A program made the translations under genes and the position numbers. Below are positions 37,603-56,732 of a stretch of 64,000 nucleotides of DNA, one piece after another. The stretch lies in NCBI GenBank assembly GCA_030426085.1, contig JAUHYW010000004.1, forward strand, positions 1 to 64,000, given 5' to 3'. This DNA comes from a bacterium (GTDB lineage Bacteria; Myxococcota_A; Bradymonadia; UBA7976; UBA1532). The notes beneath the pieces are model-generated. The model did no database searches, was not told where the DNA came from, and worked only from the letters and a program-made list of their open reading frames with translations. Numbering within the stretch: the stretch's first letter is position 1; every line of letters starts with the position of its first letter.

Positions 37603-37646
37603 AGCCCGTTGGGCGGCGACCGTATGCGGACGCCTGAACTCGGCAA

Positions 37647-37660
37647 TTGAAGCGGCGCCC
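37647..37660 (+). promoter_or_regulatory. 14-bp shared upstream motif, copy 1
   Basis: TTGAAGCGGCGCCC lies 73 bases before the GTG of the pseudokinase-ATPase gene. The same motif with one change stands before the operon at 42584. TTGAAG could be a -35 with a weak TAACCG at 37670, or the whole may be an operator. Confidence 0.4.
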
Positions 37661-37732
37661 ACGATGCTCTAACCGATGACGAGAAGCTGTCGCGCCCCCG
37701 GGCCGTCGGGCGCGCAGCGCATCGGAGGCAGC

Positions 37733-40700
37733 GTGAGCGACCCCTGCACCCTCGTGGGCTCGGCGTTCGACGAGTGGCACATCACCCGGCCGATCGATCG
37801 CATCGGCGACGAGGTGGCCTTCGAAGTGCGCCGGGACGACACCGGCGCGGTCGCCCGGCTGCGCACAGCGACCCGCCCGGGCCCGTCCCCCCTGCTCCTC
37901 GCCCAATACGGGAGCTGGGCCTACATCCGTCACCCGGTGTGGTCCCGCCCGCTGGGCGTGGTGCGGCTGCCGGACGGCCGCCCGGGGCTGCTGATCGATG
38001 GGTCGGCCCCGCCCGACTGGCCGGCCTTCGACCGGGTCGTGCTGGAGCCGGCCGACTGGGTGCGCGCGGCCGCCACCCTGAGCGACGCGCTGGCCGCGCT
38101 GCACGCCGAAGGCATCGGCTACGGGTCCATGCGGCCGCGGCAGGTGCGGGTCGACCCCGACGGCGGGGGGCGGCGGGTGCGGGTGATCGGCCTCAGCGCC
38201 GAGCCGGCAGGCGAAGGCGGCCCCCGCACGCTGCCCGACCCCACCGACGATCAAGCCGCCCTCGCCCGCCTCTTCGGCGCCTGCCCGCCGGTGGGCGCCT
38301 CGCCGCTGCTCGACGACGCCCGGGCGATCCTGGCGCGGGGCGCCGAGCGGGATCCCGGGGCGCGCTTCCCCAACATGGCCTCGATGTGCGCGGCGCTGAC
38401 CGGGCTCCTGGGGCCCGGCGGGCGCCCGAGCCGGGATCGGCGGCCCACCCTGGACGACTCGCCGGGGGTCTACCCCGCGCTGCCGTCCCCCGAAGCCGAA
38501 GGCCGGGCCACGCTGGAGGCGCTGCCCGCGGCGCTGGAGGGCGACCTCGAAGGCGACACCGACGAGGTCTCGCTCGACCTGCCCTTCGAGCCGGCCGGGT
38601 CGATCCTGCGGACCGCCGCCGAGATGCCGATCCCCAGCCCGCCCGTCGAGCGCGCCGCCGAGGTCCGGCCGGGCCTCGCGGTCGAGGGCCTGCCCATCCC
38701 GCCGACCTGCGCGCTCGGGCCCGAGGCGGACCGCTGGACGGTGCCCACCGTCGTGCCCGGCGGGGTCCTGCGCCACCGCCTCCGGCTGCGCCCGACCGAC
38801 GCGGCCACCGCCCTCGGCGCGCTGCGCGGGGCGCGGATCACCGCCGCCGACGGCGCCGCCCCGGGCGGCCTCGAAGCCACCGTGGAGCCGGTCGGGCGTG
38901 GGTGGCCCCTGCCGCTCGACCGGCCGGCCGACCTCGACCTCGTCTTCAGCTTCGCCGACGCGCGCCCCCCGGGCCCCGACGCGCCGCTGCGCCTGCACCT
39001 GACCTTCGACGACGGCGGCGAGGCCCTGCCCCTCGAGCTGCCCCGGGCCGGGCGCCGGGTGGACGCCACTTTACTCATCGACATCGGCGCGAGCGCCATC
39101 CGGTTCGCGGCGCTCGTCGACGACCGGCTGCGCCCGCTGCCCGACCCGTCGACCGGAGACGACGCCGCCCCCGCCGGCCGCGCCGACCCCCGGGGCGCGG
39201 CGCTGCTCGCGGGGCTCCAGGGCGCCATCAACGACGGGCGCCTCGCGCCCCGGGACGTCATCCTGCTGCCCTCGCTCGACGACGACGCGCTGGCCATCGA
39301 GCGCCACCGCCGGGTCGTGCGCCGCATCCTGCCGGCGGCCCCCATCCGGATCGGCCTCGCCGCGTCGGTGGCCGCCGCGTTGAGCCGGTCGGGCCCCGAG
39401 CCGCTCCTGGTGGTCGACGTCGGGCGCCGCTCGACGCACTGCATCGCGGTGGACGGCGCCACCGTGCACGCCCGGGGGCGGATCGACGGCGGGGGGCGTG
39501 GGCTGGGGCGGGCCCTGGCCGCGGTGGAGATCTTCGACGCCGCCGAGTCGACCTCGCCCGCGCCGGCCGACGACCGCGAGCCGCCGGCCGGCGCCATGGC
39601 CCTGTTCCGGCTGCCCACCCGCGCCGCGCCCGACCCCCGCGCGGCCCCGGCGCTGCCCTGGCGCATCCGGGCGGCCGACGGCGAACCGCAGACCGACCCC
39701 GGGCCCGTCGACCGCACCGACTGCCTGCGGCGGATCGCGGTGCAGCTCGAGCCGCCCCCCGACGACCCGGCGCGGGCCCGCCAGCATCAGCGATTCGAAG
39801 CGGCCCTGCGCGACCGCGACCCGGCGATCATCGACGCCCTCGGCCCCACGCTCGGATGGTCCGTGGACGGCGAACCGCCGACGACGCTGAGCCCCGGCCG
39901 GTGGGCGGCGGTGCGGGCGGTGCTCTGCGCCGAGCGGACCCACGGCGCCCGGCTCGACGCGGCGTGCGACGCCATCGCCCGCTGCGCGTGGTCGGTCGCC
40001 CGCACCGCGTGGGGCGAGGCCCCCGACGGCCTGGACGTGATCCTGACCGGCCGCGGCGCCCGGGGCACCCCGCTCGCCGCCGCGCTGGAGCGCCAGCTCC
40101 CGGTCGAGGTGCACCAGCCCCGGGGGCCCCTGGTCTTCGACGGCGCGGTCCGCTGGCGGGCGCGGGGCCACCTGCCGACGTGGCCCGGCCCCGACCGGCT
40201 GGGGTTCCGGCTGCTGCAGCTCGCCCCCGAGGCGGTCACCCTGTTCGACGCCGACTGCCACCTCCGCCGGGCGGTGGCCTGGCGCCCGCTGCCCACCGAG
40301 CCGATCACCCTCGCGGTGGCCTGGGGCGACGAAGACCCCCGGATCTGCGCCACCCTCGACCCGCCGAGCGGCGAGGCGACCGCCCTCAAGATCCGGCTCG
40401 TCAGCGACCCCGGCGCCGAGGCCCACCGCCTGGAGGCGACCTTCGTCGCCCTGCCGGCCCCGCTCGATGCGCTCACCGACGCGATCGAGCACCTGCTGCG
40501 CAGCCAGCCGCCGATGCCCGACCGGGACGACCTCGACGGGGCCCTCGACGCGTGGTGGGCCACCCCCGAACCGCGCCTGGACGGCGAGCGCGCCGTGGGG
40601 ACCCCCCAAGTGCTGGGCGTGCTCGGCGAAGACCCGCTGGTGCCGCCGGCGCAGTGCGTGGAGACGCCCCCCGCGCGCCGTCGGGCCCAGACCCGCATCA

Positions 40701-40738
40701 CGTTGCAGATGCCGGGGCTGGGGATGCTGCCGGACTGA
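37733..40738 (+). CDS. Pseudokinase fused to Hsp70/actin-type ATPase
   Basis: 1001 residues, no TM. Residues about 1-235 have the length and layout of a protein kinase, but the catalytic loop reads GYGSMRPRQV instead of HRDxKxxN and the DFG position reads GLSAEP, so it is predicted dead. Residues about 235-425 are a linker. From about 446 the segment LLIDIGASAIRFAALV is a phosphate-1 loop, LLVVDVGRRSTHCIAV at about 559 a phosphate-2 loop, and VILTGRGARGTPLAAAL at about 769 an adenosine loop of the Hsp70/actin/hexokinase fold, with a large insert of about 130 residues between the last two. A C-terminal beta-rich part of about 200 residues sits where Hsp70 has its substrate domain. GTG start with CGGAGG upstream. 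I know no described family with this pairing. Confidence 0.72.
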   Translation: MSDPCTLVGSAFDEWHITRPIDRIGDEVAFEVRRDDTGAVARLRTATRPGPSPLLLAQYGSWAYIRHPVWSRPLGVVRLPDGRPGLLIDGSAPPDWPAFDRVVLEPADWVRAAATLSDALAALHAEGIGYGSMRPRQVRVDPDGGGRRVRVIGLSAEPAGEGGPRTLPDPTDDQAALARLFGACPPVGASPLLDDARAILARGAERDPGARFPNMASMCAALTGLLGPGGRPSRDRRPTLDDSPGVYPALPSPEAEGRATLEALPAALEGDLEGDTDEVSLDLPFEPAGSILRTAAEMPIPSPPVERAAEVRPGLAVEGLPIPPTCALGPEADRWTVPTVVPGGVLRHRLRLRPTDAATALGALRGARITAADGAAPGGLEATVEPVGRGWPLPLDRPADLDLVFSFADARPPGPDAPLRLHLTFDDGGEALPLELPRAGRRVDATLLIDIGASAIRFAALVDDRLRPLPDPSTGDDAAPAGRADPRGAALLAGLQGAINDGRLAPRDVILLPSLDDDALAIERHRRVVRRILPAAPIRIGLAASVAAALSRSGPEPLLVVDVGRRSTHCIAVDGATVHARGRIDGGGRGLGRALAAVEIFDAAESTSPAPADDREPPAGAMALFRLPTRAAPDPRAAPALPWRIRAADGEPQTDPGPVDRTDCLRRIAVQLEPPPDDPARARQHQRFEAALRDRDPAIIDALGPTLGWSVDGEPPTTLSPGRWAAVRAVLCAERTHGARLDAACDAIARCAWSVARTAWGEAPDGLDVILTGRGARGTPLAAALERQLPVEVHQPRGPLVFDGAVRWRARGHLPTWPGPDRLGFRLLQLAPEAVTLFDADCHLRRAVAWRPLPTEPITLAVAWGDEDPRICATLDPPSGEATALKIRLVSDPGAEAHRLEATFVALPAPLDALTDAIEHLLRSQPPMPDRDDLDGALDAWWATPEPRLDGERAVGTPQVLGVLGEDPLVPPAQCVETPPARRRAQTRITLQMPGLGMLPD

Positions 40739-40744
40739 GGCGGA

Positions 40745-41899
40745 TCAGTCCCGGCGTGGCCCGCGGTCACGGGCTTCGGCCGGCTCGCCGGGCTCGAACG
40801 GGGGCGCCTGGACCGTCGGCGAGCTGTCGGCTCGACTGTCGAGCCCGAACCGGATCGCCTCGCCGACGAGCAGCGCCAGCCCGCTCCCGTAGCCCAGGGC
40901 CGCCGCGGTCTCGGCCACCGCCGCCTCGCCATCGGCCGCGGCGGCGATCACGTTGCTGATCAGCCCCACCGCCACCAGCCCCCCGCCAACGGCCACCCCG
41001 GTCATGCTGAACCGCTCGACCGGCGGCGGGGGCGGCGCGAGCAGGTAGTCCAGCTCGACCGGCGCGGTGCGTCGGGCGGTGATCGCCTGCTGATGGGGCA
41101 CGGTGCCCCCGTCGACCCCGTCCTGGCCCCGCTGCCAGACGACGACCGTGTACCGGCCGGGCTCGACCTCGACCGGATCGGGCGAGCAGCGACGCGGCGG
41201 CGCCGCATCGGGCGCGCCACCGCCCCCCAGAGGCTGCACGGCGAAGTACACCTCCCGACCCCCGCGGCACGGCACCCGGAGCCGAGCCGGGTGCTGCGCT
41301 TTCAACGCCTCGGCCTGCTTCGCCGCCCGTTGGGCCAATCGCTTGCCGGCGGCGGTGTTGCCCGCCAGCCGCTCGAAGACCTCGACCGCAGCGTCATATT
41401 GCCGATCGTCGGCGAGCGCCAGGGCCAGGATGTAGTCCATCCGGGCCTGCCACCGGGGGGCCGGCTTGCGGCGCCACCCCATCTCACGCAGCGCGTCGAT
41501 CGTGCGGTGGTCGCCGACGTCGACCTGCGTGGACGACGGGTCGAGCAGGGCGTCGAGCGCGTCCTCGCCCAGCCGGCGGTGCGTCGCCGGCATGTCGGGG
41601 GTGCTCAGGAACGCCAGATACATGTCGACGGCCTTGAGCGCGCGCTCGGACTGCTCGTACGCCATCGCGAGCGCGAGGCGGATCGACCCCTGCTCGGGCG
41701 AGTCGTCGGTCGAGTCCTTCAGCGGCTCGAGCAGCTCGATGCCGCAGGCCATGTCGCCCGCGTTGACGCACATCACCCCTCGCCGGGCCTGCTCGTGGTC
41801 CGCCTCCTCGGACGTGCCGGCCGGGTTCGCATAGCCGACGGACGCCACCAGCCCCCCCCCGAGGAGCAGCCACAACGCGCCAGACCTCATGGCGCTCAC
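40745..41899 (-). CDS. Exported TPR-like protein with C-terminal TM helices
   Basis: 384 residues. Signal peptide (about 5-24, ending near Tyr-Ala-Asn), a helical TPR-like region (about 30-200), a beta region with Cys pairs (about 210-290) that resembles a PEGA-type repeat (VEVEPGRYTVVVW), and two hydrophobic helices (about 303-345). Function unknown. It follows the next gene through a 4-base ATGA overlap. The architecture (signal, TPR, two TM helices) is the same as in the divergent gene at 42584, suggesting related roles on both sides of a shared control region. Confidence 0.62.
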   Translation of the reverse strand: MSAMRSGALWLLLGGGLVASVGYANPAGTSEEADHEQARRGVMCVNAGDMACGIELLEPLKDSTDDSPEQGSIRLALAMAYEQSERALKAVDMYLAFLSTPDMPATHRRLGEDALDALLDPSSTQVDVGDHRTIDALREMGWRRKPAPRWQARMDYILALALADDRQYDAAVEVFERLAGNTAAGKRLAQRAAKQAEALKAQHPARLRVPCRGGREVYFAVQPLGGGGAPDAAPPRRCSPDPVEVEPGRYTVVVWQRGQDGVDGGTVPHQQAITARRTAPVELDYLLAPPPPPVERFSMTGVAVGGGLVAVGLISNVIAAAADGEAAVAETAAALGYGSGLALLVGEAIRFGLDSRADSSPTVQAPPFEPGEPAEARDRGPRRD

Positions 41900-42423
41900 C
41901 GGGGTCGCTTCGGGACGGGCAGAGGCACTTTGGAGTCCACCGAGTGGATGCTCGGGCGCGCTCGCTTCTGCCGCTCACCCGCCGGCTTCGCCTTCTGCGG
42001 GGTGGACGACTTCTTCTTCCCGGTGGGCGGCCTCTGCTTCCCTCGCCCCCGCCGCCTGCGCTTCTTGCGTACGGGCGCCTTCTCGGGGACCACCCGCCAC
42101 TCTTCCAGCCGGGCGCTGAGCACTTCGTCCCGACAGAGCGCCTTCAACGCCTTCTGCGCGCAGATCTGCGCGTCGATGGCCGCCACGAGCCGCCCCCGCG
42201 ACTCGGGGCGCTCCAGCGCGAGCCCCACCAGCAACGCGTCGATCACCGGCCGCTCATGCTCCTCGCCATACTCGACCGCATAGGCCAATCGGGCCCGGCC
42301 CCCATCGCTCACGCCTTCGGGCGGCTCGCCCCGGCTCGGCAGTGGCACCAGCAGCGTCAGCGATGTCAGCATGAGCGTCGCCGCCCCGCCGCGCCCGACC
42401 CGACCCACGAGCCCGTCTCGCAT
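41896..42423 (-). CDS. Small exported protein with basic tail
   Basis: 175 residues. N-terminal hydrophobic segment (about 14-30), a short helical region with three Cys (about 75-100), then a Lys/Arg-rich tail (about 118-175) containing RKKRRRRGRGK. No family recognised. The basic tail could bind nucleic acid, polyanionic lipid or polysaccharide. GGAGG is eight bases before the ATG and a promoter is visible at 42447-42475. Start codon of the downstream gene overlaps its stop (ATGA). Confidence 0.58.
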   Translation of the reverse strand: MRDGLVGRVGRGGAATLMLTSLTLLVPLPSRGEPPEGVSDGGRARLAYAVEYGEEHERPVIDALLVGLALERPESRGRLVAAIDAQICAQKALKALCRDEVLSARLEEWRVVPEKAPVRKKRRRRGRGKQRPPTGKKKSSTPQKAKPAGERQKRARPSIHSVDSKVPLPVPKRPR

Positions 42424-42446
42424 GGTTCGACCTCCTCTCGACGCGC

Positions 42447-42475
42447 ACTCTACGGCCCCTCTGCGCCCGAATCAA
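42447..42475 (-). promoter_or_regulatory. Promoter of the minus-strand two-gene operon
   Basis: On the minus strand TTGATT (42470-42475), 17-base spacer, TAGAGT (42447-42452). Predicted leader of about 20 bases to the ATG at 42423, containing the GGAGG. Confidence 0.55.
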
Positions 42476-42495
42476 CGCCCCGGCGAGCGAGGGTG

Positions 42496-42509
42496 TTGAA
42501 GCAGCGCCC
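42496..42509 (+). promoter_or_regulatory. 14-bp shared upstream motif, copy 2
   Basis: TTGAAGCAGCGCCC, one base different from the motif at 37647-37660, 75 bases before the GTG at 42584 (73 in the first case). A CATTGT lies 17 bases downstream. Confidence 0.4.
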
Positions 42510-42583
42510 GAGGTGGGGCATTGTGAAGTGGAACGTCAGGGTCCCACCGGGCCGGAGTCAGGACCTCATCCGGGAGATGCCGC

Positions 42584-43366
42584 GTGTACGCACGCCCACT
42601 CATCGCCGCCGCCATGCTCTGCGCGCTGCCCGCAGCCCCCGCCGCCGGGCAGACGCCGGACGCGTCGTTCGACGCGCTGTACAAAGAGGCGAGCGAAGCC
42701 TATCGCCAGGGTCGCCACGGGGACGCGGCCCCGCTCTTCCGCCGCCTGATCGATCGGGACCCCGAAGACCCGGCGCTCGAGTTCTACCTGGCCGACGCGC
42801 TGAGCCACATCGGGCAGCACGACAGCGCTCGCCTCCGCCTGCGCGGATTCCTGGACCGGGTGACGCGCAGCGCGGTCCCCATCGGGGACTACCAGCCCGA
42901 GATCGAGGCCAGCGTCGAGCTGCTCGGGCGCCTGCGCACGGCGGACGCGACCGACCCCCGAGAGGGCGACGCCGCCACCATCTTCGGCGGCGTCGCGCTG
43001 GGCGCAGGCGTCGCTGCGGCCGGCTTGCTGGCGGGCTATCTGATCACCGACGCGCAGGCCGACGACGCCGAGGCGCGGTACGCCGAGGTCAGGGACCACC
43101 CGAAGCCCTGGAGGGCGTTGCCCGATGGGACCAGAGACTACTCCGCGCGCAGCACCGAAGAGAACCAGAAGCGGCGCGACATGGACGAAGCCAACGGCCG
43201 GGCCACGGCCTTCGGCGTCGCGGCCGGTCTCTCGGCCGGCATCGCGGTCGTGAGCGCCGTTGTGTGGGGGTTCCTCCCCGGAGGGGGCGCGGGGCCCGAT
43301 GTCACGCCCGTCATCGAGGCCGGCGGCGCGGGCTACGGCGGGGTCATGCTCGGAGGTCGATTCTGA
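42584..43366 (+). CDS. Exported TPR-like protein, first gene of kinase operon
   Basis: 260 residues. Signal peptide ending AAG-QTPD (cleavage near 22), two TPR-like helices pairs (about 28-90, DALYKEASEAYRQGRHGDAA), and two hydrophobic helices (about 130-150 and 210-230) separated by a charged loop. Starts with GTG; GGGAG is eight bases upstream. Its stop TGA shares bases with the next start (TGATG). Function unknown; the layout repeats that of the 40745-41899 product. Confidence 0.62.
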   Translation: MYARPLIAAAMLCALPAAPAAGQTPDASFDALYKEASEAYRQGRHGDAAPLFRRLIDRDPEDPALEFYLADALSHIGQHDSARLRLRGFLDRVTRSAVPIGDYQPEIEASVELLGRLRTADATDPREGDAATIFGGVALGAGVAAAGLLAGYLITDAQADDAEARYAEVRDHPKPWRALPDGTRDYSARSTEENQKRRDMDEANGRATAFGVAAGLSAGIAVVSAVVWGFLPGGGAGPDVTPVIEAGGAGYGGVMLGGRF

Positions 43367-44571
43367 TGCGATTCACCGGCCTCGTCATCAGCCTGATGTG
43401 CGCGCTGGCCCCGGGCTGTCGGGACTCGATCCCGGTGACGGCTTGCGGAGGGGGCTGCCCGTTCACCTGCGCTGAGCTGTCGAGTGGTGAGTGGGCGTGC
43501 TTGCGGTTCCCCGATGGGGGCGTCGGCGATGTGGCGCCCGACGGGTGGGCGCTCGACGCGCAGCCTTCGCCGGACCTGCCGATCGACGTCGACCGGCCGC
43601 CGGTGGGCGCTGAGATGGGGATGAGCGACGCTGCGCCGGATACGGCGCCGTCCGATGGATGGATCCCCGACTCCGAGCCGGTGCCCGACATGGGAGCGCC
43701 CGATGGCCCGGCACCCTTGCCCACTCTAATGCTCCAGCCCGTCGGCCGAGGCTGCGCGGAGCGGGACGCAATGGAGGTCGAGGTGACGTCGCTGGGCGCC
43801 TACCTGGAGGGAGCGGCGCCGGAGGGCAGCGAAGATGTCGAGATCTACCTGCCGACGGCGCCGCCCGATTGTAGTTGTCCGTATGCCTTGCCGGCGGCTC
43901 AAAAGGTCGCCGACGAGCGTCCCCTGATCCCGCGGTGGCGGATCGTGGGCTGCCTGGGGAGTGTCTGTGCCGAGAACTGTGCGCCCGAGTTGATGTGCGT
44001 GGGCGGTTGGTGCACAGCCGCTTGCCCTCAGTACCGAGACGGAGGATCGGGCGAAGACAGGTGTATCGCCAACGACGATAGGGACCCTTCAGACAGTCGT
44101 CTGGATTCTGCATGTGCGTGCAGCGCCGTCGGTGCAGCCTGCGTCCGCTCCACAAACGACGCGATGGCGCAGTATGAATGTCGCCTGCCTTGTACGGACG
44201 TGTCGGACTGCCCCCCCCGGATGGCTTGTCTGGGTCCAGAGAGGAAGACGTGGCTGGTGAGAGGCCAAAGTAGTGACCATCAACGGAGCGTTGGCTCTTT
44301 GAAGTTCTGTGTGCCGGGTGAACGGCCCCATCGCGCTGCCTGCCTGACGCCGCTCGGCATCGAAGGTTTCGACGGGGAACCAGACGCCGACTTCGAGGAT
44401 TGGGCCGAATTTTTCGAGGGTTGGGACGAATATATGGAATGCATCGTCGGGTGTTTCAGGCCCGAGAGGTCGTGTGACTGCCTACTCGAGCTGGCCGGCA
44501 CAGCCCACGCTTGCAGTCGAACCCATCACCCTGAACGATGCCTCTTCATGCCTGAATGCGCAGACGAATGA
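43366..44571 (+). CDS. Cys-rich lipoprotein
   Basis: 401 residues. Lipobox LAPGC (Cys18), an Asp/Pro-rich linker (about 45-130), then a domain with about 28 Cys, including DVSDCPPRMACLG, the DCP-type motif seen also in the ceramidase-like lipoprotein. No catalytic motif recognised; a disulfide-rich surface sensor or ligand binder is plausible. Codon use in the second half (43.9-44.6 kb) is clearly less GC3-biased than neighbours. Overlaps the next gene by ATGA. Confidence 0.68.
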   Translation: MRFTGLVISLMCALAPGCRDSIPVTACGGGCPFTCAELSSGEWACLRFPDGGVGDVAPDGWALDAQPSPDLPIDVDRPPVGAEMGMSDAAPDTAPSDGWIPDSEPVPDMGAPDGPAPLPTLMLQPVGRGCAERDAMEVEVTSLGAYLEGAAPEGSEDVEIYLPTAPPDCSCPYALPAAQKVADERPLIPRWRIVGCLGSVCAENCAPELMCVGGWCTAACPQYRDGGSGEDRCIANDDRDPSDSRLDSACACSAVGAACVRSTNDAMAQYECRLPCTDVSDCPPRMACLGPERKTWLVRGQSSDHQRSVGSLKFCVPGERPHRAACLTPLGIEGFDGEPDADFEDWAEFFEGWDEYMECIVGCFRPERSCDCLLELAGTAHACSRTHHPERCLFMPECADE

Positions 44572-45842
44572 CCATGGCATCATCCACCAAGCCCATGGTG
44601 CGAGTGCATCTCGGCTTCCGGTCGCACATCTGGGCTCAGATATGCCTATGCCTTCATCTGTGTCTGTGGCTCGGCCCCGCCGCCGCTGAGACACGCGCGG
44701 CCGACACCGGGCTGCTCGTCCTCCTCCCCGAGAGCGACGCCGCCGACCGGGCACGCGCCACCGCGGTCGCGGAGCTGGCGCGCAGCGGAGCAATCCGGCT
44801 CCTGCTGCTGAGCGATACGGGGCCGACCCATCTCGATCTCCGGCAGCCGGTCGGGCCGGAGATCGAGGCTCAGATGCGAGAGCAGGGCGACGACACTGTT
44901 CATCCAGCGGAGTTGCTCGCCAAAGCCACGGACATCGCGAAGGCCGAAGGCGCTGTCATCTGGTACTTTGGGCCTTGCTCCTACCCGGCAGCCGGCGGTA
45001 TGGGAGATGCTTTCCTGAAAGCCAATCAGGCACTGGCCAACCAATGGCGGGTCGCTCTGACTTCCAAAGCCCGCGTGGTGTGCGACGAAGAGCCCAAAGG
45101 TTACGAGTGGCAGGACGCCTGCGAGCAGAGGTATCTCCGCTGCCTGCCGATCGACCTCGACGCGCTTCGTGCCACCGCCCGCGCGCTCTGGCCCCCATGG
45201 GGTGAGCAGATACTGGCCCGGCTCCCGGGCTGGCCACAGCGCAAGATCGGCGACCTCCGGGGCGACGCATCTCCCGCGCCCGACCCCCCGCCCGCCGCGC
45301 CGGTCGCCCGGACCGAGAGCGACCCGCCGGACGCCGGCGTCGCCGCCGCGCCACCCACCCCGCCCCCATCCAGCGGCGCCGTCATCACCTACGCCCCCGA
45401 ACCCCCCGCCGACCCCGGCCTGCCGCTGTGGAAGATCATCCTCGCCTGCGCGCTCCTGCTCGGGGTGGCGATCGGCGGGTGGGTGCTCCTCCGGCCGCGC
45501 AGCCGGGTGCCGGCGATGGCGGCGCCGACGCGGCGCAACGGCGAGCTGCTGCTGCTCGACCTCTTCAGCCGGTCGCTGGTGCTCGAGCGGGTGCGGGTGC
45601 CGCTGGGGCAGGCCAGCCGGAGCCAGATCCACCCGCTGCCGTGCGAGCCGCAGGGGCGGCAGGCGATCGTGGCGATCGAGGTCGAGCCGGTGGCCCAGCG
45701 CAAGGACGCGATCACCGTCAACCTCATCGTGGACGACCTCTCCGACCCCGAGGCGCCGGCCCGCAGCGGGCAGGTGGTCGAGCTGACCCACGGGGGCGAG
45801 GCGGTGGCCTTCGGGCTGCTGCGGGTGCGCTGGGCGGGGTGA
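44568..45842 (+). CDS. Bitopic protein with exported vWA/Rossmann-like domain
   Basis: 424 residues from the ATG at 44568, chosen for the ATGA overlap; an ATG at 44556 is an alternative. Signal segment (about 15-40) ending AAAET, an alpha/beta domain (about 45-220) starting GLLVLLPESDAADRA, a Pro-rich stretch (about 230-280), one TM helix (about 287-307) and a beta-rich cytoplasmic domain (about 320-424). The first domain resembles the start of vWA-type folds but a full MIDAS is not visible. Topology suits carrying a signal across the membrane to the kinase encoded four bases downstream, an inference. Confidence 0.6.
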   Translation: MTMASSTKPMVRVHLGFRSHIWAQICLCLHLCLWLGPAAAETRAADTGLLVLLPESDAADRARATAVAELARSGAIRLLLLSDTGPTHLDLRQPVGPEIEAQMREQGDDTVHPAELLAKATDIAKAEGAVIWYFGPCSYPAAGGMGDAFLKANQALANQWRVALTSKARVVCDEEPKGYEWQDACEQRYLRCLPIDLDALRATARALWPPWGEQILARLPGWPQRKIGDLRGDASPAPDPPPAAPVARTESDPPDAGVAAAPPTPPPSSGAVITYAPEPPADPGLPLWKIILACALLLGVAIGGWVLLRPRSRVPAMAAPTRRNGELLLLDLFSRSLVLERVRVPLGQASRSQIHPLPCEPQGRQAIVAIEVEPVAQRKDAITVNLIVDDLSDPEAPARSGQVVELTHGGEAVAFGLLRVRWAG

Positions 45843-45846
45843 GCCG

Positions 45847-47988
45847 ATGCGGCGGTTCCGGGGCGCAGCGCGCGAGTGGCAGGTGGTCGGCACCCTGGGG
45901 CGGGGGGGCACGTCCACCGTCTACGGGGTGGTGCCGGCCGCGGCCGAGGACGGCGCGGGCACGGTGTACGCCCTCAAGCACGCCCTCGAGGTCGAGCGGG
46001 CGGGGCTGCTCGACGAGTGGGACCGGCTGGGGCGCTACGCCGGGCGGGCGGTCGAGCTGTTCGGGGCGCCGGCGGCGGCGCTCTTCCCGGCGGTGCACGA
46101 TCACGACCCCGAGGGCCGCTTCTTCGTCATGGATCGGGTCGACGGCACGCCGCTCGCCGAGCTGCTCGAGCGGGGCCCGCCGCTGGCGCCGGGGCATCGG
46201 GCGCGCATCGCGGCCGACGTCGCCGAGGCGCTGGCGGTGGTCGAGGACGCCGGGGAGTCGGCGCCCGATCTGAAGGCCGACGCGGTCTTCTGGCGGCCGG
46301 GGGCCGGGCGGGCGACGATCATCGACTGGAACGTGCTGCTCGAGGCCGATCCGGCGACCGGCCGGCGGCACGCCCGGCGGGCGGCGACGGTGCTCGACGC
46401 GCTCTTCGCCGGGCGCCCGGTGGAGGAGCCGGGCGACGGCGCCTCCCCCGGGCGCTGGCAGCGCTACCCGGCCCCGGTGCGGGATGCGTTGGAGCGGCTG
46501 TACAAGCAAGCGGGCGACGCCCGGGAGGCGGCGCAGGTCCTCGGCGGGCTGGCCGAGGCGCTCGACGCCTCGCCCGAGAGCGCGCCGCCCCGTCGGCGCG
46601 CCCCGACGCCGCCGCCCGATATCGGGGGCGGGGGCCCGACCGCCGACCCGCTGGCCGAGGAGCGGCGGCGCTTCGTGCTGCACGCCCGAGCCCGGCCGGT
46701 CCGGCTCGGGGGCGCCGAGGGGCGGGCGTTCGTCGACGCGGTGGCGGCGTGGCAGGCGCTGCGGGCGGTCGAGCCGGATGATCTGCGGCGCATGATCGGG
46801 GCCCTGAAGACGGCGCTGCACCGCTCGGCGCGGGCCGAGGGCTGCCTGCCGCCGACGACGCTGGCGCTGTACGGCGAGGCGCTGGATACAGCCGTCCGGG
46901 CGGCGCTGGAGGCGGCGACCGATCTGGCCCGTCCAGAGCGGCTGGAGGTCGACCTGCGGGCGATCGTCGGCGGCTGCGAGGCGGCGCTGCGCTCGGCCGA
47001 GGGCGGCGCGCTCGACCCGGAGTCGCAGGCGATGGTCGAGGGCGCCCTGCGGGGGGCGTTGGCCGGCCTGGGGGTGACCCGGGGCCGGGTGTCGGACCTG
47101 ATCGCGGCGGTGGAGCGGTGGCGGGCGACGACGTGCGACGGGCCGGTCGCCGAGGCGGCCGCCTTGCAGCGGGCGCTGGACGAGGTGGGCCCGGTGCGGC
47201 TGCTGGTCGATGCCCGGGGTGAGCTGGCGCGGCGCCTCGAAGCGCTCGACGGTGATCGCTCGATGCGGGGGGCGGTGCGCGCCGCCCGGCGGCTGCTGGG
47301 GCTGCCGGTGGGTCCGCGGCTCCCAGGGCGGGCGGCGGCGGCGGCGCTGCTGCTGCTGTGCCTGGCGGGGGCCATCGCGCTCTTGATCCCGTCGTCCCCT
47401 GAGCGAGCGTCGGGCGCGGGGCAGGCCCAGCCGGCCGACGCCCGGATCCATCTGGCGGTGGGGCAGCCGGTCCAACCGCTGGCGCCGGAGACGGCGGTGG
47501 TCGACGCGGGGCCGCCCGCGCCGGATGGCGCCGTCGGGGGTGCGGCCGACGCGGCGCGGCCGGCCGACGGGGCGGCGCCCCGACCGGAGAGGGCCGGATC
47601 ACCCGAGCGCGTGGAGGGCGCCCTCCAGCGCAGAGCGGCCCCCGAGCCCGAGCCGCCGATGGAGCCCGAGCCCGAGCCGCCGATGGAGCCCGAGCCGCCG
47701 ATGGAGCCCGAGCCCGAGCCCGCGCCGCCGATGGAGCCCGAGCCCGAGCCGCCGATGGAGCCCGAGCCCGAACCACGAGAGCCCGACGCCCGGGCCCCTC
47801 GGGCGGCGGCCGCCCCCGACGCCGGCCGGATGCCCCCTGCTGACGCCGCGCCCGGCGCTCGGCACGAGCCACCTGCTGGGCATGGGTCACCCGCAAGGGC
47901 CAAGCGCAAGCGTCCACCCATCCAGCGGACCGATGCGCGGCAATCGAACCAACCCCGTGCCGACAAGCCCCGCGAGAGGTCCCCATGA
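45847..47988 (+). CDS. Transmembrane Ser/Thr kinase-like protein with EPEPPM repeats
   Basis: 713 residues. Kinase domain about 8-245: GRGGTSTVYG loop (18-27), K44 in YALK, hinge FFVMDRVDG, catalytic loop reduced to DLKADAV (141-147; HR lost but D141, K143 and D145 kept) and D160 in IIDWN in place of DFG. Activity is uncertain but not excluded. A helical region (about 275-490) precedes one TM helix (about 496-516), then a long exported tail of Asp/Pro/Ala with EPEPPM repeats (about 600-645). The first kinase residues start at the extreme N-terminus. Its last bases overlap the next gene by ATGA. Confidence 0.78.
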   Translation: MRRFRGAAREWQVVGTLGRGGTSTVYGVVPAAAEDGAGTVYALKHALEVERAGLLDEWDRLGRYAGRAVELFGAPAAALFPAVHDHDPEGRFFVMDRVDGTPLAELLERGPPLAPGHRARIAADVAEALAVVEDAGESAPDLKADAVFWRPGAGRATIIDWNVLLEADPATGRRHARRAATVLDALFAGRPVEEPGDGASPGRWQRYPAPVRDALERLYKQAGDAREAAQVLGGLAEALDASPESAPPRRRAPTPPPDIGGGGPTADPLAEERRRFVLHARARPVRLGGAEGRAFVDAVAAWQALRAVEPDDLRRMIGALKTALHRSARAEGCLPPTTLALYGEALDTAVRAALEAATDLARPERLEVDLRAIVGGCEAALRSAEGGALDPESQAMVEGALRGALAGLGVTRGRVSDLIAAVERWRATTCDGPVAEAAALQRALDEVGPVRLLVDARGELARRLEALDGDRSMRGAVRAARRLLGLPVGPRLPGRAAAAALLLLCLAGAIALLIPSSPERASGAGQAQPADARIHLAVGQPVQPLAPETAVVDAGPPAPDGAVGGAADAARPADGAAPRPERAGSPERVEGALQRRAAPEPEPPMEPEPEPPMEPEPPMEPEPEPAPPMEPEPEPPMEPEPEPREPDARAPRAAAAPDAGRMPPADAAPGARHEPPAGHGSPARAKRKRPPIQRTDARQSNQPRADKPRERSP
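47641..47777 (+). repeat. EPEPPM coding repeat
   Basis: Tandem hexa- and tetracodon repeat giving (EP)n-PM units in the exported tail of the TM kinase; six to seven EP-rich blocks. Probably an extended spacer that spans periplasm or wall. Confidence 0.85.
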
Positions 47989-50900
47989 GCGACATCGCCG
48001 ATCCGCTCTCCCAGATCACGGTGCGCACCGACACCGACCAGCTCTTCGCGACCCAGGCGATGCCGCAGCGCACGCTCCAGGATCTGGAGACGCACTTGCA
48101 GCGGCTGTCGGTCTCGCTGGGGGAGCCGTGCCACCAACTCCTGGCCGAGGAGCGCTTCGACCAGCTCGTGGCGGTGCTCGAAGCGCAGGGGCCGGCGCTG
48201 CTCGATGTGCGCGAGCAGCAGTACGTGTTGCAGCAGGTCGAGCACCGTCGGGCGGCGGTCTTCGACGACGTGCGGCGGGCGTTCGAGCATCGGCTCGAGC
48301 TGGGTGACCTGGGGCCGGCCGAGGGCCTGCTCGACCGGGCGCGGCGGATCGACGCCGGGGCGGTCGGGGGCATGGAGGTCGCGTTCCAGCAGGCGCGGCG
48401 GCTGGCCCGGCGCAGCGGGGAGCGGGCCCGCGCGCTGGAGGACGCCCGGCGGCTGGCGGCGGACGGGCGGCTGGAGCAGATGCGGGACGCCCGGGCGATC
48501 TTCGAATCGCTGCTCGAAGGGCCCGATGACGACGAGGTCGACCGGGGGCAGATCGAGCGCGAGCTGAGCCGGCTCGACGACCGCATGGACTTCGAGATGG
48601 CCGGGCAGGCGGCGACCCACACCAAGATGCTGCTGGGGCACCTGCCGCCCAAGCTGGAGGCCCTCGACGAGCTGTACACCCTGCGCGAGCGGGGCGATCA
48701 GCGGTTCTACGCCCAGGGCGACCGGGCCGAGCCGCTGCCGGCGGTGATCGATCGACTCGAGTGCGAGCTGCGGCCGATGCTGACCGCCCGGGTCGAGTCC
48801 GATCTGGCGGGTGTCGAGCGCCTCGTCGAGAGCGAGCGCCTCGCCCCGGCCCTGCGGCGGCTGCTGCGTTATCGGGGCTACTGGTCGCTCATCGGCGACG
48901 ATCTGCGCGAGCGGGCCCTGGCCCGGCAGCAGGATCTGGAGGCGGCGCTGGCCCGGCAGGCGCTGGTCGACGCGGCGGTGGAGCGGGCCTTCGAGCTGAT
49001 GGAGGGCGGCGAGACGGCCCGGGCGGTGGAGCTCATCGAGCTGTCCCGGACCCGCATCGGCGGCGAGGTGACCCGGCTCGACGAGCTGCTCGAGACGGTG
49101 CATCGCCATCGGCTCCAGCCGCTGACCAACCGGGTGGACGATCTGGTCCAGCAGGCCGGCCGGCTGGGCGGGCTGTGGTCGAAGCAGCTCGATACGCTGC
49201 TGGCCCAGGCCGAAGAGGTGGGGTTGGCGTTCGGGGAGGTCGTGCGGGCCGACGACGCGGTCTTCGCCGATCTGCGCGGCCGCCATCGGGCGCTGCTGGC
49301 CTACCTGCGGGGGCTGGCCGAGGCCCGCCGGCTGCACGACGCGGGGCGCTTCGAGCCGGCCCGGTGCCAGCTCGAGTCGCTGGCGACGATGCTGCCGGCG
49401 CACGCCGACGCCATCCGGGTGCTGCTCGAAGGGCTGGGGGTCGACCGCTCGATCGAGGAGCTGATGGCCCGCATCCGGGGGCTGTACGGTCACGAGCCCG
49501 ATCAGGCCCTGGCCCTGGCCCTGGAGAACGCGGCGCTCGACGGGCGGGTGCGCGACTTCGCCGACTTCGCGACGGTGGAGCGGGCGCTGTATCGGGCCGA
49601 TCGGCTGGAGCGGGCGGGGCGCTATCGGGAGGCGCTGGATACGCTGCAAAGCACCCGGGGTCGGCTGAGCAACCGCGATCATCGCGACCTGATGGCGGCG
49701 ATCGAGCGCATGATGTCGGTGATCCGCGACGCGGGCCGGGTGGCGCGGCTGCTCGAGCAGCAGGCGGAGAGCGACGACCCGGCGGAGCACGAGCTGATCG
49801 CGAACCGGCTGCACGACCTGTCGGTGGGGCTCGACCGCGCCGAGCAGGTCGACCTGATGCTCTCGGCCCAGATCCCGCGTCGCCTTCAGTCGCTGCGGGA
49901 GGCGATGGCGAGCTGGCGGCAGTCGGGCGCGCTGGACTTCGAGGCGGTGGAGGCCGACGCCCGCTTCTTGCGGGCCCGGGCCCACCCGCCGGGCCCCGAG
50001 CTGACCCATCTGCTCCAGGAGTACGACTTCGCGGTGCGGCTGCTCGAGGCCCGTCAGACGCTCTTCGCCGGGGCGTTCGACGAGGCCGAGGGGCTGATCG
50101 AGCCGTTCCTCGGCGGCCCGTTCGGCGGGCGGGCCAAGGCGTTCATCGTGCGCTGCCGGGCCCAGCGGGCGCTGGCCCGGGCCCACGCGGCGGTGGCCGA
50201 GCTGGACATGGACGGCGCCCGCGCGGCGCTGCAATCGGCGCCGCCTGCGGACGTGCAGGTGCAGGCCGCCCGGCTGTTCGTCGAGCGCTTCGCGGCGGCG
50301 ATCGAGCCGCTGGTCGACCCCGAGTCGGGCGCCGAGCCGGCCGCGTCCGACGGGTCGGGGCGGGACGCGATCGAGGCGTTCCGGGTGGCCCGGGTCCTCA
50401 TCGAGCAGCAGCCGGCGTCCCCGGCCTTCGAGCAGGCGCTGGTCCGCCTGGGCCGGGCCCGCACCGGCTTCACCCAGCGGCGGATCGCGGCGGCCGACCC
50501 CCGGCTGCCGGGGGTCCAGGTCGAGGTGATGACCTGGCTGGCCCGGGACTACGACGCCGCGGGGGCCATCGAGCCCGAGTTCGAGGCCCTGATCCACGAG
50601 GCGCAGCACCGGGCGCCGGCCGACCTGCGGGCGCTCTTCGCCTGGGTCGAGGCGCGGGAGGCGGCGATCGATCGCGCGGGGGCCGACGAGGTCGGGCTGG
50701 CGCTGGGGCGGCTGCGGGCGGCCCTGGCGCTGAGCGTGGAGCTGCCCGGCTTCCCCACCCGGGCCGAGATCGAGGCGGCGGCCGGCCGGGCCGAGGCGCT
50801 GCGCGACGCGGTCGCCCGCCGGTCGAGCGATCGGGAGCGGGTGCTGGGGCTGTTGCAGCAGTCCCGGGTCCGGGCCCACCGCGGGCCGCTGGAGCAGGCG

Positions 50901-51647
50901 GCGGAGATCGAGGCGGCCCACCCCGGCCGGCCGTTCGGGGCCGCCGCCCGCCTCGCGGCGTGGGACGCGGCCGAGGCGCTGGTCTCCACGGCCCGCTCGC
51001 ACCTGTCGGCCGATCGGGTCGCCGACGCGATCGAGGCCATCCGCGAGCTGGTGCGGCTGTGCGAGGCGCACCCCCTGCCCCACGCCGAGCGCCTCGACGT
51101 CACCGGGCCCGGCGGGCGCATGCTGGGCCCGGGCGCCGAGCCGGTCCTGAGCCACCTGACGGCCGATCTGGAGAAGCGCCGGGTGCAGCGGGCGGCGCTG
51201 GCCGACGAGCTGGCCGACTTCGAGCAGCGCACCGCAGAGTTCGAGGCCCAGCGCGATCTGGCGCTGGAGCTGGCGGTGCGCGAGCGGGAGCCGGGGCTGG
51301 TCGAGGAGCAGGCCCGCCGGCTGGGAGCCGAGGTGGAGACGGTCGCGCTGGCGGTGCGCGCCCGCCGGGTCGAGGCCGCCCGGCTGGGCGACGAGCCCCG
51401 GGTGCGGGCGCTGCTGATCCGGCTCGACGCGATGAACGTCGACGCGCTCGAGCAGGAGGTCGGCCGCCGCCGGCGGGAGGCGAGCGACGCGGTGCGCACG
51501 CTCAACGACTATCGCCGCAAGGGCGAGCGGGTCATCGAGCGTCACTTCGACGAGATCGAGCGGCTGAGCGCGCAGTTCCAGGCGTCGGCCCGGGTGCAGC
51601 GCTACGTCAACCACTTCCGGGTGCTGCTCCGGCGCCCGCCGGCCTGA
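47985..51647 (+). CDS. Large all-helical cytoplasmic protein (1220 residues)
   Basis: No signal or TM. Almost entirely predicted helix with Leu/Ala/Arg/Glu heptad-like patterns and TPR-like stretches (for example ALYRADRLERAGRYREALDTL near 530, and RRLHDAGRFEPARCQLESLA near 450); the last 160 residues look like coiled coil. No known domain recognised. Begins inside the stop of the TM kinase (ATGA), so it is made with it at similar levels and may be its scaffold or substrate. Contains few Cys and many Arg, fitting a scaffold. Confidence 0.7.
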   Translation: MSDIADPLSQITVRTDTDQLFATQAMPQRTLQDLETHLQRLSVSLGEPCHQLLAEERFDQLVAVLEAQGPALLDVREQQYVLQQVEHRRAAVFDDVRRAFEHRLELGDLGPAEGLLDRARRIDAGAVGGMEVAFQQARRLARRSGERARALEDARRLAADGRLEQMRDARAIFESLLEGPDDDEVDRGQIERELSRLDDRMDFEMAGQAATHTKMLLGHLPPKLEALDELYTLRERGDQRFYAQGDRAEPLPAVIDRLECELRPMLTARVESDLAGVERLVESERLAPALRRLLRYRGYWSLIGDDLRERALARQQDLEAALARQALVDAAVERAFELMEGGETARAVELIELSRTRIGGEVTRLDELLETVHRHRLQPLTNRVDDLVQQAGRLGGLWSKQLDTLLAQAEEVGLAFGEVVRADDAVFADLRGRHRALLAYLRGLAEARRLHDAGRFEPARCQLESLATMLPAHADAIRVLLEGLGVDRSIEELMARIRGLYGHEPDQALALALENAALDGRVRDFADFATVERALYRADRLERAGRYREALDTLQSTRGRLSNRDHRDLMAAIERMMSVIRDAGRVARLLEQQAESDDPAEHELIANRLHDLSVGLDRAEQVDLMLSAQIPRRLQSLREAMASWRQSGALDFEAVEADARFLRARAHPPGPELTHLLQEYDFAVRLLEARQTLFAGAFDEAEGLIEPFLGGPFGGRAKAFIVRCRAQRALARAHAAVAELDMDGARAALQSAPPADVQVQAARLFVERFAAAIEPLVDPESGAEPAASDGSGRDAIEAFRVARVLIEQQPASPAFEQALVRLGRARTGFTQRRIAAADPRLPGVQVEVMTWLARDYDAAGAIEPEFEALIHEAQHRAPADLRALFAWVEAREAAIDRAGADEVGLALGRLRAALALSVELPGFPTRAEIEAAAGRAEALRDAVARRSSDRERVLGLLQQSRVRAHRGPLEQAAEIEAAHPGRPFGAAARLAAWDAAEALVSTARSHLSADRVADAIEAIRELVRLCEAHPLPHAERLDVTGPGGRMLGPGAEPVLSHLTADLEKRRVQRAALADELADFEQRTAEFEAQRDLALELAVREREPGLVEEQARRLGAEVETVALAVRARRVEAARLGDEPRVRALLIRLDAMNVDALEQEVGRRRREASDAVRTLNDYRRKGERVIERHFDEIERLSAQFQASARVQRYVNHFRVLLRRPPA

Positions 51648-51701
51648 GGCGCCGGCCCACAGCGCCAGCCCGCAGCGCCGGCCAGAGACGGCGGCCCGCG
51701 G

Positions 51702-53486
51702 TCAGCCGGTGAGCAGCGCCACCGCGGTGGCCGCGGCGCCGGTGAGCCCCACCAGGGCCGTCGCCGCCCGTCGGGTGCGGCCGAGCGGTGACGACGACAG
51801 GATGTCCTGCATGAGCTGGTGGTGGATGCCCTTGATGCCGTGCAGCACCGCCTGCGACGCCTCGGGGCCCCGCTGGGTCCGGGTGGCGAGGAAGCTGTTG
51901 CGGGCGCCCCGGATCATCATCCGCAGGATGAGCAGCATCAGCTCGTCGCGGTAGTAGGGCTCGCGGATGGCGTTGCGCCGCCGGGCGTAGCCGGTCTGGG
52001 CCGCGAGGTACTCGATCGTCAGCGCCCGATCGGCGACCTCGCCCTCGATGGTGCCCGCCATCTGGCGCAGCGCCCGGACCTCGTCCTCGTCGCCGTCGGT
52101 GAGCACGAAGTAGAACAGCGTGCCCAGCGAGAAGACGTCGTGAGCCTCGCCGAGCATCGGGATGTGGGCGTAGCGCGGCTCGCCGGTGGGATCCGGGGTG
52201 CCCTCGTAGTAGGCGTAGGCCTCCTGCTGGTCGGAGTCCATCTCGATGCGCAGCACGGTGATGTCGTGCCGGTGGTCGGGGTAGCGAGCGTCGGCGATGA
52301 TGTCGCCCTCGCGGATGTCCTTGTGGGCCAGCACGCTGAACCGGGGCTCGGTGCGGTCGAAGTGCAGCATGTGGTTGAGCTTGCTCGGCCGCTTGATCGC
52401 CTCGGGCGACATATAGGGCGACTTGTTCTGCCCGGCGGGGGTCTCCTCCTCGTACCAGCTCCGGGTCAGCTTGCCCTGGTCGGCGAGGCCGAAGTCGATG
52501 ACCCGGGTGGCCACGGTGGGGTAGGTCACCATCTCGTCGAGCAGCGCTTGCAGCGGCAGGTCGCCGCCCCCGCGCCAGGCCGCCGACAGCCCGCCCACGC
52601 TGTGCACCATCACGTTGTCCGGGGCGAGGTCCTTGTGCACGATCTGCCGCTCGTCGTGATGCAGCCAGGCCACCGCCTCGGCGAGCTGCACCATCATCAG
52701 CAGCTTCTCGAGCAGCAGCGCCTGGGTCACCAGCGTGGTGGGGGTGTCGGGCTGCCACCAGCGGCCGAGCCGCTCCCCGACGCGCGGGCGGGGCGGCGTC
52801 TGGCCGGTCACCCGGGTGATGTCGTCCTCGATCGGCGGCAGCGCGACGCCCCGCCGGCGCCACGCCTCCACCTGGAACCGCCGGCGGTTGACGAGGTAGT
52901 CGGGCAGCTTCGACTCGAGCAGCTCCATGACCAGCGCCTTGCGGTGCACGAAGTTGACCACCGTGCCCTGGTCGGCGAACACCCCCTCGATGTCGAACGG
53001 CTTGGCCTGGGCCAGAAACAGCTTGCGCACCTCGTCCCGGTGCTTGGGCGAGATAGGGGGCATGGTGCACTCGTCGCACGCGAGGCAGGGGTGCTCCTCG
53101 CCCTCCGGGTCGAGGCGCCGCAGGGGGCCCTCGCCGCACTGCGGGCAGTGCGGGCTGTAGAGCGCGCCCGAACCGCACATCACCAGGGGCGGCAGCTCGA
53201 TGATGTCGAGGGCGGTGACGACGTTGACGCTGCCGGTGGCGTTGAGCTCCTTGACCAGTCGGATCTCTTGATCGAAGAGGCGCTCGTGGCTCAGGGTCGC
53301 GTCGTCGCGCAGGATCTTGATCGCCACCTGCCGGACCCGGTTGTCGTCGGTGCGCTGCCAGGCCTTGAGCACCCGGGCGAAGGCGCCGGTCCCGATCTCG
53401 CACGGGCGGGAGAGCCCGTCGTCGCCGGCCTGCACGATGAACTCGTACTTCACCTGAGAGCGGATGGCGGACGGGGTCTGGGTCAT
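51702..53486 (-). CDS. Ser/Thr kinase with zinc ribbon inserted in the N-lobe
   Basis: 594 residues. GTGAFARV (32-39), K57 (VAIK), E74, catalytic loop HKDLAPDN (284-291), DFG (331-333), SPE (360-362, in place of APE), so active-site residues are complete. Between the N-lobe and hinge there is an insert of about 80 residues with C114-x2-C117 and C134-x2-C137-x2-C140, a zinc-ribbon or knuckle. A hydrophobic helix closes the protein (about 573-592), making it tail-anchored. Starts in the stop of the upstream kinase gene (ATGA at 53483-53486). Partner and substrates unknown. Confidence 0.85.
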   Translation of the reverse strand: MTQTPSAIRSQVKYEFIVQAGDDGLSRPCEIGTGAFARVLKAWQRTDDNRVRQVAIKILRDDATLSHERLFDQEIRLVKELNATGSVNVVTALDIIELPPLVMCGSGALYSPHCPQCGEGPLRRLDPEGEEHPCLACDECTMPPISPKHRDEVRKLFLAQAKPFDIEGVFADQGTVVNFVHRKALVMELLESKLPDYLVNRRRFQVEAWRRRGVALPPIEDDITRVTGQTPPRPRVGERLGRWWQPDTPTTLVTQALLLEKLLMMVQLAEAVAWLHHDERQIVHKDLAPDNVMVHSVGGLSAAWRGGGDLPLQALLDEMVTYPTVATRVIDFGLADQGKLTRSWYEEETPAGQNKSPYMSPEAIKRPSKLNHMLHFDRTEPRFSVLAHKDIREGDIIADARYPDHRHDITVLRIEMDSDQQEAYAYYEGTPDPTGEPRYAHIPMLGEAHDVFSLGTLFYFVLTDGDEDEVRALRQMAGTIEGEVADRALTIEYLAAQTGYARRRNAIREPYYRDELMLLILRMMIRGARNSFLATRTQRGPEASQAVLHGIKGIHHQLMQDILSSSPLGRTRRAATALVGLTGAAATAVALLTG

Positions 53487-55915: not shown

Positions 55916-55970
55916 GTCCGACTCCTGGCAGCAGCCCATGCGTCGACCGACCCGCCCCGTGCGGAGAGCC

Positions 55971-56000
55971 AATGTATTTCAAGGGCTACGCCGAGCGCAA
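55971..56000 (-). promoter_or_regulatory. Promoter of the kinase pair
   Basis: On the minus strand TTGCGC (55995-56000), 18-base spacer, TACATT (55971-55976); the latter is in the only AT-rich part of this spacer. Confidence 0.5.
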
Positions 56001-56099
56001 CATCTGCGCGGGCGCTGGCGAACTGTCAGGAGGGCAGCATCGGGCGCCTGCCCATCGGGGTGGAGCGACGGGCGGGGGCAGGCGGGGCCCGGCGGGCGC

Positions 56100-56732
56100 T
56101 CAGCCGCCCTTCTTCTTGCGCTTGCGGCGCTTCTTGCGCTTCTTCTGCTTGCGCTGGGCGACGCCGTCTTTGTACTGCGCCTCCTCGCCGGGGCCCGAGT
56201 CGTCGATCCAGTAGTAGCTGCGGTCGCGCACGTCCATGTGCACGAAGTTGGAGCTGGGGTAGAGCCCCAGGCCGACGTTGTCGAAGCGCTTGCAGTAGTT
56301 CCACACCTCGCGGTTCGAGACCCCGACCACCCGGAAGTCCACCGCCCGGCCCTGCTTGTGGCGGCTCGACTTGCGCTCCTTGTGGCGGTAGGCGCTGATG
56401 ACCTCGATCGGGGCGTCGAAGCGCTGGCCGACGAGGTAGAGGTACCACAGCAGCCGCTCGGGGATGCGCTTGGTCTTGCCGGTGCGCCAGTCGCGCAGGA
56501 AGTGGGTCAGCCGCTTGCGGGCCCGCTTGCCGACCCACTGCTTGTCCTTGTTCTTCGGGTCGACCCGGATGACCCACAGGTTGTCGAAGCGCTCCTTGGT
56601 GTTCACATGGCGCATGCTCATGTGATAGCGCTTGATCTGCTTGCGTTTACGGGGCTTTGCGAGCGCCGACGGCACGCACAGCGCCAGCCCGACCCCCGCG
56701 ATCAGGGCCCAGATCCAGCCCCGGCGCCTCAC
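56100..56732 (-). CDS. DUF882 / M15-like peptidoglycan peptidase homologue
   Basis: 210 residues. GTG start inside the stop of the upstream gene (GTGA, 56729-56732), signal peptide ending ALA-KP (about 26), then a domain with SAYRHKERKSSRHKQGRAVD: H and D of the zinc-binding His-x6-Asp, and the third ligand in NFVHMDVRD. Family members (DUF882, M15 type) cut cell-wall peptides or bind peptidoglycan. Ends in a very basic tail (KKRKKRRKRKKK). No clear functional tie to the neighbouring oxidoreductase subunit other than coupling. Confidence 0.8.
   Translation of the reverse strand: MRRRGWIWALIAGVGLALCVPSALAKPRKRKQIKRYHMSMRHVNTKERFDNLWVIRVDPKNKDKQWVGKRARKRLTHFLRDWRTGKTKRIPERLLWYLYLVGQRFDAPIEVISAYRHKERKSSRHKQGRAVDFRVVGVSNREVWNYCKRFDNVGLGLYPSSNFVHMDVRDRSYYWIDDSGPGEEAQYKDGVAQRKQKKRKKRRKRKKKGG

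Follow-up and report, generated by a model that had tools for sequence, protein, structure and literature searches.

The 64,000-nucleotide stretch of DNA analysed here (the window), which is 74 percent GC, carries a gene, P0001, whose reading frame runs from a GTG codon at 37733 to a stop at 40738 and encodes 1001 amino acids with zero internal stops. Based on its codon-position signature (a third-position GC of 0.96), we regard P0001 as a real gene; with the frame intact and a GGAGG ribosome-binding site upstream, the coordinates assigned to it in a preliminary description of this locus proved correct. P0001 is the first gene of a block that also encodes TPR and secreted proteins, the genes P0002 and P0003, and two more kinase genes. 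The features discussed below are the following.

37618–56089 (no strand assigned): 18.5-kb block missing at this site from a same-genus genome (G001), with P0001 as its first gene; from genome comparison
37724–37728 (+): GGAGG ribosome-binding site, 4 bases 5' of the GTG start; from sequence
37733–40738 (+): P0001, read as pseudokinase, linker, unclassified region, putative degenerate ASKHA domain and C-terminal tail; from frame, codon bias, phmmer and signature
37733–38467 (+): pseudokinase domain, residues 1-245, with a short activation segment and the C-lobe helices kept; from phmmer matches to kinases and alignment
38468–38716 (+): low-complexity linker, residues 246-328, for which relatives were not found; from sequence
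38717–39052 (+): unclassified region, residues 329-440, with neither a Pfam match nor relatives found
39053–40177 (+): putative ASKHA (actin/Hsp70-fold) domain, residues 441-815, lacking subdomain IB and containing a long insert (about 595-700); from motif triad, alignment and assisted model
39071–39094 (+): PHOSPHATE-1 loop LLIDIGAS, residues 447-454; from motif and alignment
39344–39382 (+): CONNECT-1 helix IRIGLAASVAAAL, residues 538-550, with Ala544 at the position of the Hsp70 catalytic Glu; from manual reading of the alignment
39407–39436 (+): PHOSPHATE-2 loop LVVDVGRRST, residues 559-568, with GRRS in place of GGGT; from motif and alignment
40037–40072 (+): ADENOSINE loop VILTGRGARGTP, residues 769-780, starting VILTGR; from motif and alignment
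40178–40735 (+): C-terminal region, residues 816-1001, with six low-confidence predicted strands; from a model with pLDDT under 50 there
45847–47988 (+): divergent kinase gene P0002, paired with a coiled-coil gene; same block
47985–51647 (+): P0003, a long helical/coiled-coil protein of 1220 amino acids, paired with P0002; same block
51702–53486 (-): kinase gene in which a long insertion, weakly matching a zinc ribbon, lies between the N-lobe and C-lobe matches; same block
53483–55972 (-): canonical Ser/Thr kinase gene; same block

Searches of all parts of P0001 against Pfam, NCBIfam and PDB sequences returned no match, the Pfam Pkinase model (PF00069) not reaching its threshold, and the PHROGs and PADLOC profile libraries gave nothing useful. 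Residues ~40-163 nevertheless match protein kinases of related genomes, with phmmer E-values of 4.7e-12 (the kinase at L026, the best match), 1.4e-9 and 6.2e-9, and the two best of these partners have Pkinase scores of 6.7e-34 (L026) and 1.8e-32. When P0001 is aligned with the kinases, the HGD of its relatives at the HxD motif reads YGS, the catalytic Asn is replaced by Gln, the DFG Asp is deleted (the aligned kinase has DPG), the VAIK Lys is replaced by Arg, and there is no APE region; LARGAERDPGARFPNMASMCAAL, which closes the domain, retains a resemblance to the final kinase helices. This alignment shows the N-terminus to be, as judged from its sequence, a protein-kinase domain lacking every residue needed for phosphotransfer, and we call it a pseudokinase because the Lys, the HRD Asp, the Asn and the DFG Asp have all been lost. 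The kinase-shaped N-terminus without catalytic residues that had been proposed for this protein is thus borne out. Following the linker, the alternating hydrophobic pattern of residues 329-440 suggests a beta domain.

Three nucleotide-binding loops had been placed at about residues 446, 559 and 769 of the C-terminal half, and we located them at residues 447, 559 and 769, in the order expected of ASKHA proteins. In an unguided MAFFT alignment with the Hsp70s and the MreB of the same genome, the PHOSPHATE-1, PHOSPHATE-2 and ADENOSINE loops of P0001, an AAAL helix and a GG turn all fall in register, and the GA that follows the ADENOSINE loop also fits. We scanned 229 natural proteins, most of them from related genomes, with a loose signature made of two hydrophobic-Asp-hydrophobic-Gly motifs followed by hydrophobic-x-Gly, in this order and with ASKHA-like spacing. 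It matched six ASKHA proteins and P0001 and no others, and it also matched 29 of 20,000 shuffles; these counts are supporting rather than independent evidence, because the pattern was written after the P0001 sequence had been seen. The profile methods gave no such signal: block-PSSM and HMM scores of the C-terminal half for Hsp70 were not above those of shuffles, the Hsp70 family (PF00012) gave no match to P0001 at E-values up to 10, and hhalign against an Hsp70/MreB profile returned an E-value of 0.078 and a probability of 0.7 percent. Because the profile scores do not exceed those of shuffles, we do not call this domain an Hsp70; kinship to Hsp70 in particular would go beyond what the sequence establishes, and the case for it is weaker than the preliminary description held.

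When AlphaFold2 was run without relatives, confidence in the model of P0001 was very low (pLDDT 36). Chains of actin, Arp, TsaB or hexokinase make up about half of the 50 best Foldseek matches to this model, each of them on its own far from significant. When an alignment of Hsp70 and MreB proteins was supplied, the loop-bearing parts reached block-mean pLDDT values of about 55-85 and adopted a duplicated ASKHA strand order. This assisted model superimposes on MreB and DnaK with Z scores of about 12-13 and rmsd values mostly of 5-7 over 220-259 residues, the best matches belonging to the MreB/actin family (Z 13.0, rmsd 4.9 over 226 residues), an agreement that is partly circular because the supplied alignment consisted of Hsp70 and MreB proteins. 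The duplicated beta-beta-beta-alpha-beta-alpha-beta-alpha core likewise appears in this partly circular model, the alignment-free model being too poor to display it. Beyond the ASKHA domain, six strands are predicted in residues 816-1001, with pLDDT values under 50.

Since the profile libraries miss the C-terminal half, we infer the ASKHA fold from the motifs, the strand order and the weak fold matches; the assignment of residues 441-815 to an actin/Hsp70-type domain is well supported but not proven. Alternatively, only the pseudokinase may be real and the C-terminal half may have another fold, its loops being coincidental in an Ala/Gly/Val-rich protein from a 74 percent GC genome. This would agree with the silence of every profile over the C-terminal half, with the devising of the signature after the sequence had been seen and with the recovery of its loose form from shuffles, but it does not account for a signature without an evident false positive among the natural proteins, for alignment-free fold matches that lean towards actin-fold proteins, or for the fit of the AAAL helix, the GG turn and the GA, and we consider it quite unlikely.

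Granting an ASKHA domain, its active site appears worn. Both loop aspartates (Asp450 and Asp562) and the first glycines are kept in the alignment. The two phosphate loops are 112 residues apart in P0001 versus 181-210 in the Hsp70s and 147 in the MreB of the same genome; because this spacing leaves no room for it, subdomain IB, and with it the catalytic Lys, is taken to be absent. The CONNECT-1 Glu is replaced by Ala544 (a residue pairing read manually from the alignment), the GGGT loop of Hsp70 by GRRS at residues 564-567, and the GG of the ADENOSINE loop by GR. No peptide-binding domain was recognised in residues 816-1001, where there is no Pfam match and relatives were not found. From these residues, nucleotide binding by the ASKHA domain seems possible and ATP hydrolysis doubtful.

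The preliminary description had envisaged an ATP-driven clamp, in which the ASKHA domain would be a working ATPase and P0001 a noncanonical Hsp70-like clamp aimed by the dead kinase at phosphoproteins or other kinases. Such a clamp would be compatible with the conserved aspartates and glycines and with the strands predicted where Hsp70 would carry its substrate-binding domain, and actin and MreB hydrolyse ATP without a subdomain IB of Hsp70 size. However, the Hsp70 features that hydrolysis and clamping require are missing or changed, namely the CONNECT-1 Glu, the GGGT loop, the ADENOSINE GG and the Lys-bearing subdomain IB, and no substrate-binding domain is matched by the region C-terminal to the ASKHA domain. 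The loss of subdomain IB, the catalytic Glu and GGGT makes a doubly degenerate scaffold the likelier reading, and a clamp now looks doubtful; since it would require an active site that is not apparent in the sequence, we rate it as unlikely.

P0001 is known from one genome only. Searches of 57 class genomes, including the same genus, of 284 genomes of the phylum, and of GTDB contigs, plasmids and viral contigs yielded no relative of its C-terminal half; the first-look stage of all these searches is non-exhaustive and may let distant relatives escape. The sole sub-threshold match in the phylum (E 0.007) pairs the PHOSPHATE-2 loop of P0001 with the PHOSPHATE-1 loop of a type III pantothenate kinase, so named from a reading of its sequence and itself an ASKHA protein. 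The genome of P0001 also encodes tandem noncanonical Hsp70s of 930 and 602 amino acids (L021, 6643-11244); these were rejected as relatives of P0001, being clear Hsp70s that begin with the nucleotide-binding domain and have no kinase ahead of it. Noncanonical Hsp70s whose role is unclear are numerous in M. xanthus and its relatives (PMC8265645).

This restricted occurrence, together with the loss of catalytic residues from both domains, could also fit a decaying gene, that is, a formerly active kinase-Hsp70 fusion losing its function in one lineage. Against this stand an intact 3-kb frame with strong codon-position bias and a good ribosome-binding site, and losses that are clearest in the catalytic loops whereas the surrounding hydrophobic pattern is kept. 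We consider decay distinctly improbable.

The order of domains had been thought to belong to no described family; this is not so, as a 2005 paper (PMC1262709) listed 'Kinase + HSP70' for gi|32474490, which is a protein of Pirellula sp. Compared by description only, that protein resembles P0001 in carrying, on one chain, a protein-kinase domain and, C-terminal to it, a domain related to HSP70, and differs in that its HSP70 is recognisable, whereas the kinase of P0001 is dead and its C-terminal domain lies beyond the reach of profiles. With the kinase + HSP70 order already known, what is new in P0001 is that both halves look catalytically degenerate. A search of eleven planctomycete genomes for Hsp70 proteins yielded large frames from seven loci without a kinase domain, and these were rejected as kinase fusions.

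With the nucleotide-binding domain of Hsp70/DnaK (PF00012), P0001 shares the order PHOSPHATE-1, CONNECT-1, PHOSPHATE-2, ADENOSINE and the loop aspartates; it differs in lacking any Pfam match, a subdomain IB and a recognised substrate-binding domain, and the equivalents of Glu171, GGGT and Asp201 (DnaK numbering) are changed. The MreB/actin family resembles P0001 in its smaller subdomain IB and provides the best matches of the assisted model (a partly circular result, MreB being in the alignment), but P0001 departs from MreB in its shorter spacing of the phosphate loops, in the loss of the CONNECT-1 Glu and in a long, disordered-looking insert after PHOSPHATE-2. A further bacterial pseudokinase occurs in a genome of the same class (L027, 7791-9536), with HGK in place of HRD and the DFG Asp gone; it is thus comparable to P0001 in its kinase fold and in the loss of HRD and DFG, and carries a membrane segment and a repeat tail instead of an ASKHA domain.

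The genomic setting of P0001 was compared with that of G001. DNA similarity between the two genomes ends at 37617 and resumes at 56090, with about 178 bases between these points in G001. The ceramidase-like gene upstream of the block has a 72 percent identical counterpart in G001, where it directly precedes the ortholog (87.5 percent) of the window gene at 56729-57715. A recent foreign origin of the block was rejected: its composition equals that of its flanks, there are no flanking repeats over 9 bases, and its edges are without tRNA; the genes scanned included no recognisable integrase. The difference from G001 may stem from an insertion long ago or from a deletion in G001. The pair P0002-P0003 recurs at about 27 percent identity in the same genome (L040) and in the same-genus genome (L042), and was rejected as a partner system of P0001 for want of conserved linkage, paralogs at G000:C73 and G001:C95 having no adjoining P0001. 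The proposed tie of P0001 to the neighbouring kinases is only positional, since P0002-P0003 paralogs occur without P0001, and gains in interest from the block that P0001 and three kinase genes have in common.

Pseudokinases are known allosteric holders of active kinases. The explanation that we favour for P0001, to which we give an even chance, is a lineage-specific signalling scaffold built from two worn-down nucleotide-binding folds. The fuller version, somewhat short of even in our estimation, is that a pseudokinase and an actin/Hsp70-fold pseudo-ATPase have been fused, with catalysis lost and the folds kept, giving a scaffold, either insensitive to nucleotide or sensing it slowly, for a lineage-specific kinase block. 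The pseudokinase would hold a partner, most likely from the same block, such as one of the three kinases or their substrates, and the ASKHA domain, binding nucleotide weakly or not at all, would serve as a conformational or docking module. P0001 would in this way gate or assemble a phosphorylation pathway, itself catalysing no step. A dead kinase joined in one chain with a degenerate actin-fold domain, next to active kinases, would offer a compact test of whether such a domain can act simply in docking or as a conformational module. P0001 also illustrates that current family libraries recognise little of such proteins.

Further along the window, at 57994-60234 on the minus strand, one protein combines a TIR domain with a Ser/Thr kinase and an FGE-sulfatase domain.
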